Below, piece by piece: positions 44,498 to 50,424 of a stretch of 64,000 nucleotides of DNA. A program made the translations under genes and the position numbers. The number at the start of each line of letters is the position of its first letter. Positions within the stretch are counted from its first letter, which is position 1. The DNA lies in contig JABFSE010000003.1 in the NCBI GenBank assembly GCA_013140765.1, positions 1 through 64,000 of the forward strand, in the 5' to 3' direction. This DNA comes from Sulfuriferula sp. (GTDB lineage: Bacteria > Pseudomonadota > Gammaproteobacteria > Burkholderiales > Sulfuriferulaceae). The notes below the pieces were generated by a model, which was given only the letters and a program-made list of their open reading frames with translations, was not told the DNA's origin and did not search any database.

Positions 44498-44764
44498 TTA
44501 GTTACCGTAGTGATAGCGGCAGGCAATGATAACCAAGTCACCTTCGTTTACGCAGTACACCAGCCGATTTGTTTCATCAATTCTGCGTGACCAGTAACCT
44601 GCCAAGTTCTCTTTTAATGATTCTGGCTTACCTATGCCTTCAAACGGTTGCCGCATTGTTGCCTGAATAAGCTGATTGATGCGTTTAAGCGTCTTTTTAT
44701 CCTGACCTTGCCAATAAACATAATCATCCCAGGATGCCAGCGTCCAAGTCAGGCGACTAATCAT
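44498..44764 (-). CDS. yoeB: YoeB-family mRNA interferase toxin
   Basis: Ribosome-dependent endoribonuclease of 88 residues. It has the YoeB pattern TWTLASWDDYVYWQ, PFEGIGKPESLKENL, YWSRRIDETNRLVY and the C-terminal ACRYHYGN. The Glu, Arg and terminal His-Tyr used in catalysis are all present. It overlaps yefM by 8 nt. Confidence 0.95.
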   Translation of the reverse strand: MISRLTWTLASWDDYVYWQGQDKKTLKRINQLIQATMRQPFEGIGKPESLKENLAGYWSRRIDETNRLVYCVNEGDLVIIACRYHYGN

Positions 44765-45011
44765 CTACTAATTCTCGGGTTACGGTTTTGCCTTGTTGAT
44801 ATTGTGCAATTGAGTTTGCCAAATGCGCTGCATTGGCAGGGGATTTTAATAAATGCACGGTTTCCATTAAGCCATTAAACGCATCTAACGACATAATCAC
44901 CGCATCGGGCGCATCGCGTCGGGCAATGACGGTGTAATCAGCATCATCAACAACTTGATCAATCACTGCTTTTAAGCTGCTACGAGCTTCAGAAAAATTC
45001 ATGACACGCAT
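44757..45011 (-). CDS. yefM: YefM-family antitoxin
   Basis: Phd/YefM antitoxin of 84 residues from ATG 45011, with GGAG 6 nt before it. The N-terminal DNA-binding half is MNFSEARSSLKAVIDQV, then DAVIMSLDAFNGLMETVHLL, and the C-terminal tail neutralises YoeB. It lies 84 bp from the integron integrase stop, but on the side away from the cassettes. Confidence 0.93.
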   Translation of the reverse strand: MRVMNFSEARSSLKAVIDQVVDDADYTVIARRDAPDAVIMSLDAFNGLMETVHLLKSPANAAHLANSIAQYQQGKTVTRELVDD

Positions 45012-45026
45012 GGCGCACTCCAATTT

Positions 45027-45094: not shown

Positions 45095-46090
45095 TTACAT
45101 ATCCAACGGACTTTTTACCCCGCGACCACCTTTATTTAACACATGGGTGTAAATCATCGTAGTGGAAACATCCGAATGCCCCAGTAACTCCTGCACCGTG
45201 CGGATGTCGTAGCCAGATTGCAATAAGTGCGGCGCAAAAGAGTGCCGTAAAGTATGCGGCGTAGCTGGTTTGGTGAAACCCAAATCACGTACCGCTTGTT
45301 TAATTGCGCGTTGCAAACCCTTTTCATCAATATGATGTCGGCGCGTGATACCAGAACGCGGGTCGGTTGATAAATTTTTAGACGGGAAAACATACTGCCA
45401 ACCCCATTCACGCCCCGCATGAGGGTATTTTTTATCCAGTGCAAACGGCAAATAAACCTCACCATAACCCGCCGCCACATCCTCATCATGCAAGGCTTTC
45501 ACCTTGGCTAAATGCAATTTAAGCGGCGTAATCAACGACTCAGGCAGCATCGTCACCCTATCCTTAAACCCCTTGCCCTCACGCACAATAATTTCATGTC
45601 GTGCAAACTCAATATCCTTCACCCGCAAACGAACGGCCTCCATCAAGCGCATCCCTGCACCATACAACAAACCCGCCACCAAGCTATGCGTACCCTTTAA
45701 TTGCGCCAACAGTGCCTGCGTTTCGCTCACCGTCAGCACCACGGGCAGACGTTTTGATGCTTTCGCCTGCGTTACGTTATCCAGCCATGGTAATTGGATT
45801 GCCAATACCTCACGATATAGAAATAGTAATGCGCTTTTAGCTTGATTCTGTGTTGAAGCAGCCACTTTGCCCGTCACCGCCAAATGCGTTAAAAACGCCT
45901 CCACCTCAACAGCCCCCATCTCCTGCGGATGCCGCTTGCCATGAAACAGAATATAGCGTTTAATCCAATCTAAATAAGTTTGTTCCGTGCGTATGCTGTA
46001 ATGCTTAACCCGCAATTTATCGCGTACACGGTCGAGCAATTTAGGCGGATTCACTATGGTGTCCTTGTCATCAAAATTAGGGTGTGCCAT
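45095..46090 (-). CDS. intI: Integron integrase IntI
   Basis: Tyrosine recombinase of 331 residues from ATG 46090 (AAGGA upstream); a TTG 46114 start is less likely. The extra segment found only in integron integrases is present as [18 protein letters not shown] (about 205). Catalytic residues are Arg in [12 protein letters not shown], His/Arg in [12 protein letters not shown], His in [11 protein letters not shown] and Tyr in IYTHVL. The usual SFATHLL reads SFAPHLL here, a Thr-to-Pro change that could affect activity. It is transcribed away from the cassettes, as in other integrons. Confidence 0.93.
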
Positions 46091-46111
46091 AATCGTATCC
46101 TTATTAAAATT

Positions 46112-46157
46112 CAAGGTGTTGCAACATGGATAGCCAGAATATACACCTTGAAGGTGC
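46112..46157. repeat. Repeated AAGGTG motifs between intI and attI
   Basis: CAAGGTGT (46112-46119) and its complement ACACCTTG (46143-46150) form an inverted repeat. A third copy, GAAGGTGC, follows directly at 46150-46157. Integrase-binding repeats and the intI promoter normally lie in this place. I see no LexA box. Role inferred. Confidence 0.4.
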
Positions 46158-46190: not shown

Positions 46191-46197
46191 GTTAAGC
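46191..46197 (+). other. Candidate attI core site (GTTAAGC)
   Basis: GTTAAGC fits the integron core consensus GTTRRRY and lies 101 bp upstream of the intI ATG, in the correct orientation for cassettes to be inserted to its right. Crossover would occur after the first G. Confidence 0.6.
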
Positions 46198-46571
46198 TCA
46201 GATAGCCATGCATCACGCATGGCAGTAATAATTAAATAATAAAATTCATGCACGGCACATGATGTTGGCAAGAAAATTGCTGTATTTACAGCAAGTTATA
46301 AATATGATATTGAGTGAAGCGAGACGTAACGCTGTCGCATAACTGAATTCGTTGATGCGAACATCGTGAGACTCGCTTCACGCAACATGATGATATTTTC
46401 GGGTGTTTTATTCGGTGGTGGTGCATAAGGGTACGTGTCAGAAATGAATCATCGTATACAAATAGAGAGAGGCCGTGCACGGCCATCTGCGCCTAACGCC
46501 TCGTTCGAGCGAACACCGTTCGCTTCGCTCTCGGCTGACGCCCCTTCGGGGTGTCGCTCAACTCAAACACG
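46192..46571 (+). other. Cassette 1: 380 bp without a convincing protein gene
   Basis: The stretch between attI and attC1 holds several inverted repeats: TTGCTGTA/TACAGCAA at 46277-46294, GTGAAGCGAG/CTCGCTTCAC at 46314-46381, and the perfect palindrome GGCCGTGCACGGCC at 46471-46484. The only plus-strand ORF of note is 46259-46342 (27 residues). A 66-codon minus-strand ORF is against the cassette direction. It might encode an RNA, a promoter or a decayed gene. Confidence 0.55.
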
Positions 46572-46577
46572 TTAGCC
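46491..46577 (+). other. attC site 1 (87 bp)
   Basis: The ends are GCCTAAC (46491-46497) and GTTAGCC (46571-46577). The inner arms GAGCGAACACC (46507-46517) and GGTGTCGCTC (46550-46559) pair except for one extra A, the extrahelical base typical of attC. Between them lie smaller hairpins, including CCCC-TTC-GGGG. Confidence 0.85.
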
Positions 46578-46663: not shown

Positions 46664-47554
46664 ATGAGTAACTTTATAAAAGAAACAAAAGAAGCAGTCA
46701 CCGTTTACAACGGTGACTGCTTTGCATGCCTAGCCGATATTGAAGATTTTTCGGTAGATTTAATTTTTGCAGATCCACCGTACAACATCGGGAAGAAATT
46801 CGGCAATTTTATGGATGTATGGCCTTCCGATAAACACTACGCCGAGTGGTGCTACAAATGGCTAGAATTGTGCGTAAAGAAATTAAAGCCAAATGGTAGC
46901 CTGTACATTATGGCGAGCACACAGGCAATGCCTTATCTTGATTTATGGTTGAGAGAGCGGCTTACCGTTTTATCTAGAATAGTCTGGCATTACGATAGCT
47001 CAGGAGTTCAGGCAAAGAAATTTTTTGGCTCATTGTATGAGCCAATTATTTTTTGCGTCAAAGATCAAAAGAACTACACATTTAATGCTTCGGATATTGA
47101 GGTAGAGGCCAGAACCGGAGCAACTCGCAAGCTCATTGATTATAGAAAAGAAGTTCCAACACCCTATAAAACGACAAAAGTACCGGGCAACACGTGGTAC
47201 ATGCCTCGCGTAAGGTATCGAATGCCTGAGTATGAAGAGCATCCAAGCCAAAAGCCCGAGGCATTACTAGAAAGAATTATTAGGGCCAGCACCAACCCCG
47301 GCGACTTAGTGCTTGACCCATTTTCAGGAACATTTACCACATGTGCAGTTGCCCAGCACTTAGGAAGACGATCTATTGGTATTGAAATGCAGTCAGAATA
47401 TTTCAAAATTGCGCTTAGAAGACTTGGCATAGCTGACCATTTCAATGGTGAATTATTAAAACCAGTTGATAAAACATTCATCCGAAAAAATGGTAACGGC
47501 GTGCAGCAATCTCGCGAAGCACAACAGGACGGGCTTTTTGATGTCAAAGTTTGA
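46664..47554 (+). CDS. DNA methyltransferase, YhdJ-like (beta class), in cassette 2
   Basis: Methyltransferase of 296 residues. Motif IV (FADPPYNIGKKFG, about 36-46) comes before motif I (LDPFSGTFTTCAVAQ, about 217), the beta-class order of N6-adenine/N4-cytosine enzymes. YDSSGVQAKKFFGSLYEP, LIDYRKEVPTPY and the VPGN/PRVRY region closely follow E. coli YhdJ, an ATGCAT-specific adenine methyltransferase. If specificity is shared, this enzyme modifies ATGCAT. It overlaps the next gene by 14 nt and lies between attC1 and attC2. Confidence 0.9.
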   Translation: MSNFIKETKEAVTVYNGDCFACLADIEDFSVDLIFADPPYNIGKKFGNFMDVWPSDKHYAEWCYKWLELCVKKLKPNGSLYIMASTQAMPYLDLWLRERLTVLSRIVWHYDSSGVQAKKFFGSLYEPIIFCVKDQKNYTFNASDIEVEARTGATRKLIDYRKEVPTPYKTTKVPGNTWYMPRVRYRMPEYEEHPSQKPEALLERIIRASTNPGDLVLDPFSGTFTTCAVAQHLGRRSIGIEMQSEYFKIALRRLGIADHFNGELLKPVDKTFIRKNGNGVQQSREAQQDGLFDVKV

Positions 47555-48713
47555 AATAACGAATCACTCGTTTACCGCTTCAATAAATTCAATACTAGAG
47601 AAACATTTTGGAGAGTACGCCAAAGACGTTTTTGAAGCTAGCCCGCTACTTGGCTATCTGAATAACAAAACAAAGTCTGCAAATCGTGGCTCAAAAGCGC
47701 GTGGCGCTTTTGCAAATCATTACGCGCTCTATGTGGTAATAGAAGACTATTTGGAAAAAGGCTTTCTAAGTGGAAAGGCCAATATTCCATACTCAAAATA
47801 TGAAGGAGCTAGGTTTTCTGACCTTTTTCGTAGGCAGCGAGAATTGCCTTTTGGCGCAAAGCTACAAAATCATGGCCTTAATGCACGCCTGAATGACGAA
47901 TTTAAGAAGTTCTATCCAACTGTCGGCAAGTCGCCGATTGTTCGGGACGTCGAGAGCCAACGATACTGGTTTCAAGAAGACTTATTGCTTGTGCAAATAC
48001 GTCAAAAAAATGGAAAAGATGTCACATACAACATAGCAAAAGCCGTTATTGAAGTAATTGACGCTTATGTGGCCACAAAGAAAGCCGCTTTTGAAGGATT
48101 TCTTGAAGCCTGTCGGAAAATAGCAGAGCTTGGAAAAGAAAATCCAGAACACGCTAATGACTTCGTAATTCAGCAACTGAAGCAAAATGTTGATGCGAGG
48201 GTTTTTGAAATAGTTAGTTACGCTGTACTGAAGGCGAAATATGGCCAGCAAACGGTTTGGATTGGCGATGCAAAAGAAGCGGTATCTGAAGAGGCGCTAA
48301 TTCTTTACAAAACAGGCCGCACAAATGCAAATGATGGCGGCATTGATTTTGTCATGAAGCCTCTGGGGAGATTTTTTCAGGTGACGGAAACAATTGATGT
48401 CAGTAAGTATTTTCTGGATATAGACAAGGTTCAGCGCTTCCCCATCACCTTTGTTGTTAAATCTGACGAAACCGCAGAGCAAATACGATCTGCTATTCGA
48501 GTTCAAGCTATAGCGAAATATAAAATTGAAGCCGTCGTTGAAACCTACATGAAGGCTATTGAAGAAATAATTAACGTTAAAGATTTAGTCGAAGCGTTTT
48601 CGGAAGTCGTCAAGTCAGGAAGCCTTCAAGAAGTGATGGATGAAATCGTCATCCAGAGTAAGGTTGAGTTTAATTACAGCGATGATGAAGAGTTGGAATC
48701 TGATGACGTATAG
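47541..48713 (+). CDS. Probable type II restriction endonuclease partner, cassette 2
   Basis: Protein of 390 residues, AT-rich like its neighbour. The start ATG 47541 overlaps the methyltransferase by 14 nt. A PD-(D/E)XK-like core is suggested by NANDGGIDFVMKPLGRFFQV (about 262-281): an Asp after two Gly, then strand residues FFQVTE, with later Lys (DIDKVQRFP). The position beside a DNA methyltransferase in one cassette argues for restriction. If the pair acts on ATGCAT it would be an AvaIII/NsiI-type isoschizomer; that is inference. The stop codon lies 12 bp before attC2. Confidence 0.72.
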   Translation: MSKFEITNHSFTASINSILEKHFGEYAKDVFEASPLLGYLNNKTKSANRGSKARGAFANHYALYVVIEDYLEKGFLSGKANIPYSKYEGARFSDLFRRQRELPFGAKLQNHGLNARLNDEFKKFYPTVGKSPIVRDVESQRYWFQEDLLLVQIRQKNGKDVTYNIAKAVIEVIDAYVATKKAAFEGFLEACRKIAELGKENPEHANDFVIQQLKQNVDARVFEIVSYAVLKAKYGQQTVWIGDAKEAVSEEALILYKTGRTNANDGGIDFVMKPLGRFFQVTETIDVSKYFLDIDKVQRFPITFVVKSDETAEQIRSAIRVQAIAKYKIEAVVETYMKAIEEIINVKDLVEAFSEVVKSGSLQEVMDEIVIQSKVEFNYSDDEELESDDV

Positions 48714-48725
48714 CCAGCGAAAACG

Positions 48726-48784
48726 GGCTAACAAGTCGTTGCAGCGGACGCGCTAAAGCGCGCCGCTGAACTCCAACGTTAGCC
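48726..48784 (+). other. attC site 2 (59 bp)
   Basis: The ends GGCTAAC (48726-48732) and GTTAGCC (48778-48784) are exact complements, and the length is exactly 59 bp. The arms AGCGG-A-CGCGC and GCGCG-CCGCT pair around a TAAA loop with one extrahelical A. This is a textbook 59-base element. Confidence 0.95.
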
Positions 48785-48796
48785 ATTTCACGCCAC

Positions 48797-49321
48797 ATGG
48801 AATATCACGAAGCAGCAGACATTGCGAGAAAGAACCCAGGCGCGGTAATGACTCGTGACTCCTCCGGTACATTTATCGTTCGTCTAACCAACGGTGAGGT
48901 AGTCGGTTCATCTGGCAACACCGCAAATGTCGCTGATGCGGCTCATCAAGAACGTGAAGCACACCTCGATTTTGCCTTTCGGGAAGATCAACTCCACCAT
49001 GAAATTGCAGACCTCAGCGAAACAATTTCAAAGCTCAAGGGGGCAGTCAGCGCCGCAAAATTAGACGCACATCAACTTTCACAGCAACTTGAAACGCTTC
49101 GAGCCGAAAATGCATCACTTCAAAGCAAGCTTGCGAAGGTGTCGGCTGAAGAATTGGAAAGGATCAAGGCAGCAGACAAAGTCATAAGAGAAGCAGATAG
49201 TGCCCGCCGAAAATCCGAACGCAGGACTGTCAAATGTTCATGCTTTGGCGAAGTGGAGAACTGTTTCCGCGGCTATGGTGCCGGTGAATATACAGTCGAT
49301 GGGTTCGGCAATCGAGTATGA
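48797..49321 (+). CDS. Coiled-coil protein with C-terminal Cys motif, cassette 3
   Basis: I cannot assign a function to this 174-residue protein. Residues 1-50 form a small mixed domain (ARKNPGAVMTRDSSGTFIVR, with VRLTNGEVVGSSG). Residues about 55-140 are a heptad-rich coiled coil (QLHHEIADLSETISKLKGAV, SQQLETLRAENASLQSKLA). The tail is KCSCFGEVENCFRGYGAGEY then TVDGFGNRV. This looks like a zinc-binding tail (CXC...C..C) in which the last Cys has become Gly. It occupies the cassette between attC2 and attC3. Confidence 0.8.
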   Translation: MEYHEAADIARKNPGAVMTRDSSGTFIVRLTNGEVVGSSGNTANVADAAHQEREAHLDFAFREDQLHHEIADLSETISKLKGAVSAAKLDAHQLSQQLETLRAENASLQSKLAKVSAEELERIKAADKVIREADSARRKSERRTVKCSCFGEVENCFRGYGAGEYTVDGFGNRV

Positions 49322-49325
49322 CGAT

Positions 49326-49395
49326 GGCTAACCCGGCAGTCCACGCGGACGCTGCGCGATAAAGCCGAGCAGCGCCGGTGACTTCTACGTTATGC
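49326..49395 (+). other. attC site 3 (70 bp)
   Basis: The ends are GGCTAAC (49326-49332) and GTTATGC (49389-49395), the latter imperfect for GTTRRRY. Inner arms GGACGCTGC and GCAGCGCC pair with one extrahelical A, and CAC/GTG extends the stem past a bulged G. It closes cassette 3. Confidence 0.85.
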
Positions 49396-49415: not shown

Positions 49416-49556
49416 GTGATTGAATTGGTTCTGAAAAATATTAAAGTTGAGGAGGTCGATGAAGGTATCTTTTCGTGCATTGACCGAAATGACCGTCAGA
49501 GCGATTACGACAAGGCAACGGGGTCAGGTCTTGCAATGCAACATCCACTCCACTAA
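49416..49556 (+). pseudogene. Cassette 4 gene, interrupted by the RAYT element
   Basis: A GTG-started frame of 46 codons begins 21 nt after attC3 (IELVLKNIKVEEVDEGIFS, then CIDRNDRQSDYDKATGSG) and runs into the left end of the RAYT element at 49520. The last dozen codons are therefore transposon sequence. The original protein was presumably longer; its 3' part is not seen right of the element. Not recognised. Confidence 0.55.
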
Positions 49557-50424
49557 ACTAAGCAAATGGCTAGACCTTTAAGATTAGAATTATCGGGTGG
49601 TGTTTATCATGTCACGTCTCGGGGCGATGGGCGTGAGGATATTTATTTATCTGACGCGGACAGAATGGCTTGGTTGGCGGTGTTGGCTGAGGTCTGTGCG
49701 CGTTATAACTGGGTGTGTCATGCCTGGTGCCAAATGACGAATCATTATCATATTTTGATTGAAACGCCTGAGGCGAATTTAGCGCAAGGGATGCGTCAGC
49801 TCAATGGCGTTTATACGCAACGTTTTAATCGGGCAAATAGGCGAATTGGGCATGTTTTTCAGGGTCGGTATAAGGCTATATTGGTAGAGCGCGATAACTA
49901 TTTGCTGGAGCTGGCGCGGTACGTGGTGCTTAATCCATTGCGGGCTAGGATGATTACGCAATTAGCCGATTGGCAATGGAGTAGTTATTTAGCAACTTGT
50001 GGGCAAGTCGCGGGGGACGTTTGGTTACAAACGGATTGGATATTAGGGCAGTTTGGTGATAATCGTGCTAAGGCAATTGCGGGATATGTCGAATTTGTCC
50101 ATGCTGGCGCACGCTTGCCGAGTGTGTGGTCGCAGTTGCAGGGGCAGATTTATCTAGGCTCGGCTGACTTCGCCGAAAAGATGCAAGCGCAAATCGAGCA
50201 TAAATCATCACTATCCGAGATTCCACGCGCCCAGCGTCGGGGCGTATCTCAACCGCTATCTGAATTTGCGACGAGCTACCCAGCTAAAGAAGCGATGGCT
50301 CGCGCCTATCTTTCTGGGCAACACACCATGCAGTCTATCGCCCAGCACTTTAAGGTGCATTATGCTACCGTGAGCAGAGCCGTAAAAAATCACCATAAAA
50401 TGCTGGAAAGTTAGAACTGACCCC
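49520..50424 (+). mobile_element. RAYT-type element bounded by GGGGTCAG / CTGACCCC
   Basis: GGGGTCAG at 49520-49527 and its complement CTGACCCC at 50417-50424 flank a single Y1 transposase gene. The left end continues as GTCTTGCAATGCAACA, a sequence I associate with the same transposase type in other genomes. No target duplication was found. The unit is about 905 bp. Confidence 0.7.
49566..50414 (+). CDS. REP-associated tyrosine transposase (Y1/IS200-like)
   Basis: HUH-family transposase of 282 residues. It begins MARPLRLELSGGVYHVTSRG. The HUH motif is NHYHILIE (about 59), the candidate catalytic Tyr is in ERDNYLLELARYVVLNP (about 114), and FNRANRRIGHVFQGRYKA is typical of RAYTs. The C-terminal HTH (AYLSGQHTMQSIAQHFKVHY) suggests DNA binding. 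Such proteins mobilise or spread REP-like hairpins. All motifs look intact. Confidence 0.9.
   Translation: MARPLRLELSGGVYHVTSRGDGREDIYLSDADRMAWLAVLAEVCARYNWVCHAWCQMTNHYHILIETPEANLAQGMRQLNGVYTQRFNRANRRIGHVFQGRYKAILVERDNYLLELARYVVLNPLRARMITQLADWQWSSYLATCGQVAGDVWLQTDWILGQFGDNRAKAIAGYVEFVHAGARLPSVWSQLQGQIYLGSADFAEKMQAQIEHKSSLSEIPRAQRRGVSQPLSEFATSYPAKEAMARAYLSGQHTMQSIAQHFKVHYATVSRAVKNHHKMLES

Follow-up and report, generated by a model that had tools for sequence, protein, structure and literature searches.

The integron and its gene cassettes

The ORF under study occupies positions 48797..49321 on the plus strand of the window (the whole stretch of 64,000 nucleotides that was analysed), from an ATG at 48797 to a stop codon ending at 49321, and encodes a protein of 174 aa, exactly the coordinates and frame given in an earlier note on this DNA. 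It is the sole gene of a 611 bp integron gene cassette (48779..49389, plus strand), which runs from TTAGCC through the G preceding TTATGC. The integron integrase gene intI is located at 45095..46114 on the minus strand (TIGR02249, E-value 5e-145). Beside it, within 44498-45023 on the same strand, a YoeB toxin gene (TIGR02116, E-value 1.1e-30) was identified together with a YefM-like antitoxin gene, the latter under the curated cut-off (E-value 1.1e-19).

In an integron array the final six bases of an attC site belong to the following cassette, and this applies to the last six bases of the site that ends the 611 bp cassette (49326..49395, plus strand; core sites GGCTAAC at 49326 and GTTATGC at 49389). 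For this reason, the 3′-end of each cassette was joined to its own 5′-end, as in the circular form, before the bottom strand was folded. With its own cassette end the site folded with a z-score of -3.7 (1/500 shuffles as good), against -0.2 as it lies in the array. The attC of the upstream cassette (48726..48784, plus strand; GGCTAAC at 48726 and GTTAGCC at 48778) gave z-scores of -6.2 with its own ends joined (0/500 shuffles as good) and -5.0 as it lies. Both properties of an integron gene cassette, i.e. a nearby integrase and an attC with complementary cores and a bottom-strand hairpin, were thus found at 48779-49389, and on the grounds of the joined-end fold and the integrase at 45095-46114 the cassette is real. 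The number of complementary core pairs on the plus strand of the window was not above chance (10, against a mean of 5.7 and a maximum of 12 in 50 shuffled sets), and no Rfam match at gathering threshold was obtained in the window.

The upstream cassette carries a DNA adenine methyltransferase gene (46664..47554, plus strand; PRK11524, E-value 1.5e-134) and a type II restriction enzyme gene (47541..48713, plus strand; PADLOC PDLC03455, E-value 8.6e-153; no PDB relative at E-value up to 0.01), the two frames (46664-48713) overlapping by 14 bases within one cassette. The profile matches of both enzymes, the attC sites and the integrase bear out the location next to a restriction-modification cassette that had been proposed from the sequence. 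The first cassette-like segment (46192-46571, 380 bp) had no frame open beyond about 70 codons but a strong stem around 46313-46380 (-20.9 kcal/mol when folded as DNA). The first attC-like site (46491..46577, plus strand; GCCTAAC..GTTAGCC) folded no better than its shuffles (z-scores of -1.2 as it lies and -1.1 joined). Downstream, a fourth cassette begins at 49390, and its 46-codon ORF (49416-49556) stops shortly 5′ of a gene for a REP-associated Y1 transposase at the end of the array (49566..50414, plus strand; Y1_Tnp, E-value 2.2e-11; NF047646, E-value 5.4e-22, 78.2 bits against a cut-off of 80). The array looks as if it had been cut at this point.

When the 611 bp cassette was shuffled, an ORF of equal or greater length appeared in 18/1000 cases, and ORF length by itself gives weak support for a gene. 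That ORF 48797-49321 is a gene, carried as cargo of the integron cassette, follows from the full-length relatives that were found. A search of its own genome returned no second copy, and literature searches returned no description of the 174 aa protein, which belongs to a rare and so far uncatalogued family.

Relatives and genomic context of the family

The first relative is an unannotated ORF of 229 aa in Aeromonas caviae KAM479 (NZ_AP026896.1, 2998024-2998710, minus strand), which was retrieved with 28.9% identity over 99% of the length (E-value 3e-15) when 72,556 plasmid records were searched at the protein level. It matches the window protein at full length and has the same three parts, with the tail CTCNGEVENCYRCDGKGEY, but its coiled coil is longer, a fourth cysteine is kept in the tail, and an attC cassette around the ORF was not seen. 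The two-sequence profile in turn detected a relative of 199 aa (38% identity) in genome G595 of the same class (contig 109, 490-1089, locus L023), with E-values of 3.9e-15 (tail half) and 5.2e-6 (head). Also this protein shares the three parts and differs from the window protein in its fourth cysteine; its gene is flanked by inverted repeats, and attC was not seen.

In A. caviae a resolvase fragment (PF00239) precedes the family gene. This pair occurs twice, with its first copy truncated next to an IS66 transposase ORF that lies between the copies (L002:2098-5681). Downstream, two ORFs which by eye resemble an IS21 pair interrupt an integrase frame. The G+C content of the family gene was 0.438 against 0.553 for the locus; the record is labelled plasmid, yet it is 4.9 Mb long. 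The inverted repeats of G595 are 36 nt in length (75% complementary; 281-316 and 1223-1258), and 3′ of the family gene lie a gene of TauE type and a fragment of a UvrD-like helicase. Mobile DNA or repeats thus contain or adjoin all three members, which is what would be expected of cargo.

Searches of genome groups gave matches in 2/398 (the source genome and G391), 1/150 (the source genome), 13/369, 2/300, 2/94, 1/345 and 1/53 genomes, counts which are not additive as distinct genomes since the groups overlap. Judged from the aligned ranges, only the source genome and G595 were accepted as holding true members; the other matches (11 in the group of 369, and one each in the groups of 398, 300, 94, 345 and 53) aligned with the coil and did not reach the tail knuckle. 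Single-sequence scans of the genome contigs gave no confirmed relative. Matches to the head domain only, in 38/279 genomes at E-value up to 0.05 (best non-self 0.0015), were taken as chance, as no knuckle was present in the examined frames of the 14 non-self loci that were retrieved. The family is rare among the collections searched (up to 398 genomes per search).

Protein architecture

The three members share an N-terminal domain of 38 residues, a coiled coil that varies in length, the hinge VSxEExxRI, and the tail CxCxGExExCxxCxGxGxYxxDGxG (with the fourth Cys in the relatives). The N-terminal domain (residues 1-38, 48797..48910, plus strand) has the motif MxYxEAxxIARxNPGxxxxRxxxGxFxVxxxxG and is predicted to form a helix (3-12) and three strands (17-20, 26-29, 35-37); in the three-row alignment its invariant residues are E5, A6, A10, N13, P14, G15, R20, G24, F26, V28 and G33. 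The coiled coil (48923..49216, plus strand) is interrupted at the conserved hinge, as seen in the alignment and in the AlphaFold2 model. The long heptad region described in the earlier note was real, with L, I, V or M at 14 of the 29 a and d positions in the best register against 0-9 in the other six, and it was covered by the two helices predicted by AlphaFold2 (43-114 and 117-140). The zinc-knuckle-like tail comprises residues 147-169 (49235..49303, plus strand).

Using two-row alignments, AlphaFold2 models of the window protein (pLDDT 81.7, pTM 0.36) and of the G595 relative (pLDDT 79.7, pTM 0.33) presented the same order of elements, i.e. helix, strands, long helix, hinge, helix, and two strands around the knuckle. 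Such low pTM values would be expected of a rod. Confidence was low in the tail, with block means of 52-74 in the window copy and 62-75 in the relative. Foldseek returned no matches for the window model against PDB at E-value up to 0.001, and none for the model of the G595 relative against the viral library. The best VIA-align match (Z 6.0) was on long helices, and the VIA-align matches were not used. A profile search of PDB with the head listed three sequences, the best at E-value 0.68. No Pfam, NCBIfam, PHROGs or PADLOC family fitted the 174 aa protein beyond coiled-coil noise, and the whole-protein matches in the profile libraries (ZapB, SMC, spanins, LmuB, Jet etc.) were rejected as coiled-coil similarity.

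Putative zinc knuckle and the lost cysteine

The tail of the window protein reads C147-S-C149-F-G151-E-V-E-N-C156-F-R-G159-Y-G161-A-G163-E-Y165, and C147, C149, G151, E152, E154, C156, G161, G163, Y165, D168, G169 and G171 are invariant in the three-row alignment. At the position of Gly159 (codon 49271-49273) both relatives have cysteine. The window copy thus presents every part of the family pattern (head motif, coil, VSxEExxRI and the tail CxCxG(x4)CxxCxGxGxY) with the exception of the fourth Cys. A CXC...CXXC zinc site with its last Cys changed to Gly had been suggested earlier from the spacing, and this reading of a damaged zinc tail is well supported by the comparison, as Cys stands there in both relatives and in unrelated proteins of phage that carry this knuckle, although these proteins came from a pattern that required Cys.

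This pattern, CxCxG(x4)CxxCxGxGxY, occurred in 24 viral stretches. Of these, 14 from environmental phage were judged to be plausible as open frames, and the other 10 to be of low complexity or broken. Ten of the 14 frames were scanned for families: three were terminase small subunits (loci L026, L034 and L049), two were DNA polymerases (L027 and L045), and five had no family at E-value up to 0.001. Of the frames outside the scan (L029, L036, L041 and L047), the first three were by eye near copies of scanned ones. With Gly replacing the fourth Cys, the pattern was found in four stretches, all in Cys/Gly-rich frames that were non-coding by look, which gives 14 plausible frames against none for two patterns that differ in codon composition, the frames being judged by eye. 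A stricter pattern including the two conserved Glu residues had no viral matches. The invariance of the Cys is based on two relatives, in a family of three known members, and to unrelated proteins selected for Cys.

Against PDB, the best two of the eight sequences listed for the knuckle profile were DnaJ A3 (E-value 0.014) and anti-TRAP RtpA (E-value 0.036), neither of them significant for any single stretch (i-Evalues of at least 1.4). Anti-TRAP requires zinc for both its oligomers and its function (PMC2896485). On the basis of these resemblances and of the zinc need of anti-TRAP, the four-Cys knuckle of the relatives is very probably a zinc site, and the window copy is, with marginally less confidence, likely to be zinc-impaired; with Gly159 in place of the fourth ligand its knuckle probably has little or no affinity for zinc. 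A single-base error of sequencing or assembly is a possible source of the Gly159 codon. The window copy may still work, since the other invariant residues of the tail are all kept.

Interpretation

The explanation which we regard as the best, and hold as a whole with intermediate confidence, is a rare family of rods with a head at one end and a knuckle at the other, of which the window copy, cargo of an integron cassette, would be a zinc-impaired member. The small alpha-beta head, the coil of variable length, the conserved hinge and the C-terminal knuckle CxCxG(x4)CxxCxGxGxY are given by the sequences or by prediction. The coiled coil would assemble the protein into dimers or trimers, and the ends of the rod would then display several heads and several zinc knuckles. 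By analogy with oligomeric zinc proteins that sequester their partners, e.g. anti-TRAP, the protein might act by binding a partner, either protein or nucleic acid, and the chances are about even that it is such an oligomeric binding adaptor; all that concerns the partner is what we infer. The window copy would represent a partly disabled cassette, or one in which only the function of head and coil is retained.

An unlikely alternative is a regulator or a DNA- or RNA-binding accessory of mobile elements, in which the knuckle would contact nucleic acid and the coil would dimerise the protein. The knuckle is present in DNA-handling phage proteins, and each member lies in or beside mobile-element features (the integron cassette; the resolvase fragment, IS66 and split integrase of A. 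caviae; the inverted repeats of G595), but such a location is expected of any cargo gene, profile searches revealed no helix-turn-helix or other DNA-binding domain, and the similarity of the tail model to YbaB-type chains was weak (VIA-align Z 2.0-3.5) and within noise. Equally improbable is a decaying cassette without function in the source genome, with the Cys loss as its first visible damage: one of the four ligands is lost and the genome is without another copy, but the frame is intact and the remaining invariant tail residues are all kept.

Somewhat less likely again is a single-gene anti-phage cassette, in which coil and head would target a component of the phage, recognising or blocking it, and the knuckle would mimic or touch DNA-handling phage proteins. 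According to a review (PMC12409362), at least 16/179 cassettes of Vibrio cholerae and 9/57 tested cassettes of V. parahaemolyticus were anti-phage upon expression, and from these counts about one cassette in ten would be anti-phage whatever its content. Nothing found here raises that figure much. The knuckle does occur in terminase small subunits and DNA polymerases of phage, and the adjacent cassette is a restriction-modification pair, but this neighbour says little because cassettes are shuffled one by one. PADLOC 2.0 matched 15 families at E-value up to 1, but all of these matches were on the coiled coil and amount to noise (best E-value 9e-4), and a recognisable defence locus surrounds neither relative. 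It is highly improbable that the mobile-cargo rods, which would share their knuckle with phage terminase small subunits and phage DNA polymerases, interfere with the packaging or replication of phage as oligomeric decoys or competitors, and that the window copy is a zinc-less form with rod and head kept. A phage origin of the family is rejected on present evidence, with no match in phage records and none confirmed in five protein-based viral scans.

This is a new small cargo family in an ordinary setting. Most integron cassettes are without an assigned function. For the protein of ORF 48797-49321 an architecture is now defined, two relatives located outside integrons are known, and a single residue stands out for testing. 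Phage DNA-handling proteins that are unrelated to each other also have the knuckle motif in common, which might be given a name as a small zinc module.

Comparison with known systems

The integron anti-phage cassettes (Darracq 2025, Kieffer 2025, via the review PMC12409362) are likewise small and single-gene, and no sequence link between them and the cassette described here is known. Anti-TRAP (RtpA, PDB 3lcz) is a small oligomeric protein with the CxxCxGxG zinc motif, but it has two such motifs in 53 residues and is without a long coil; the pattern of two CxxCxGxG in about 53 residues was not found in the window protein. The DnaJ cysteine-rich domain (PDB 2ctt) shares CxxCxGxG repeats with the tail. 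A single CxxCxGxG is present in the relatives and no complete one in the window copy, and among the Pfam matches listed there was none to the DnaJ-type CxxCxGxG domain (PF00684). The DnaJ domain has four repeats, whereas the family tail has one, preceded by CxCxG, and in sequence the knuckle weakly resembles half a DnaJ cysteine-rich domain and anti-TRAP.
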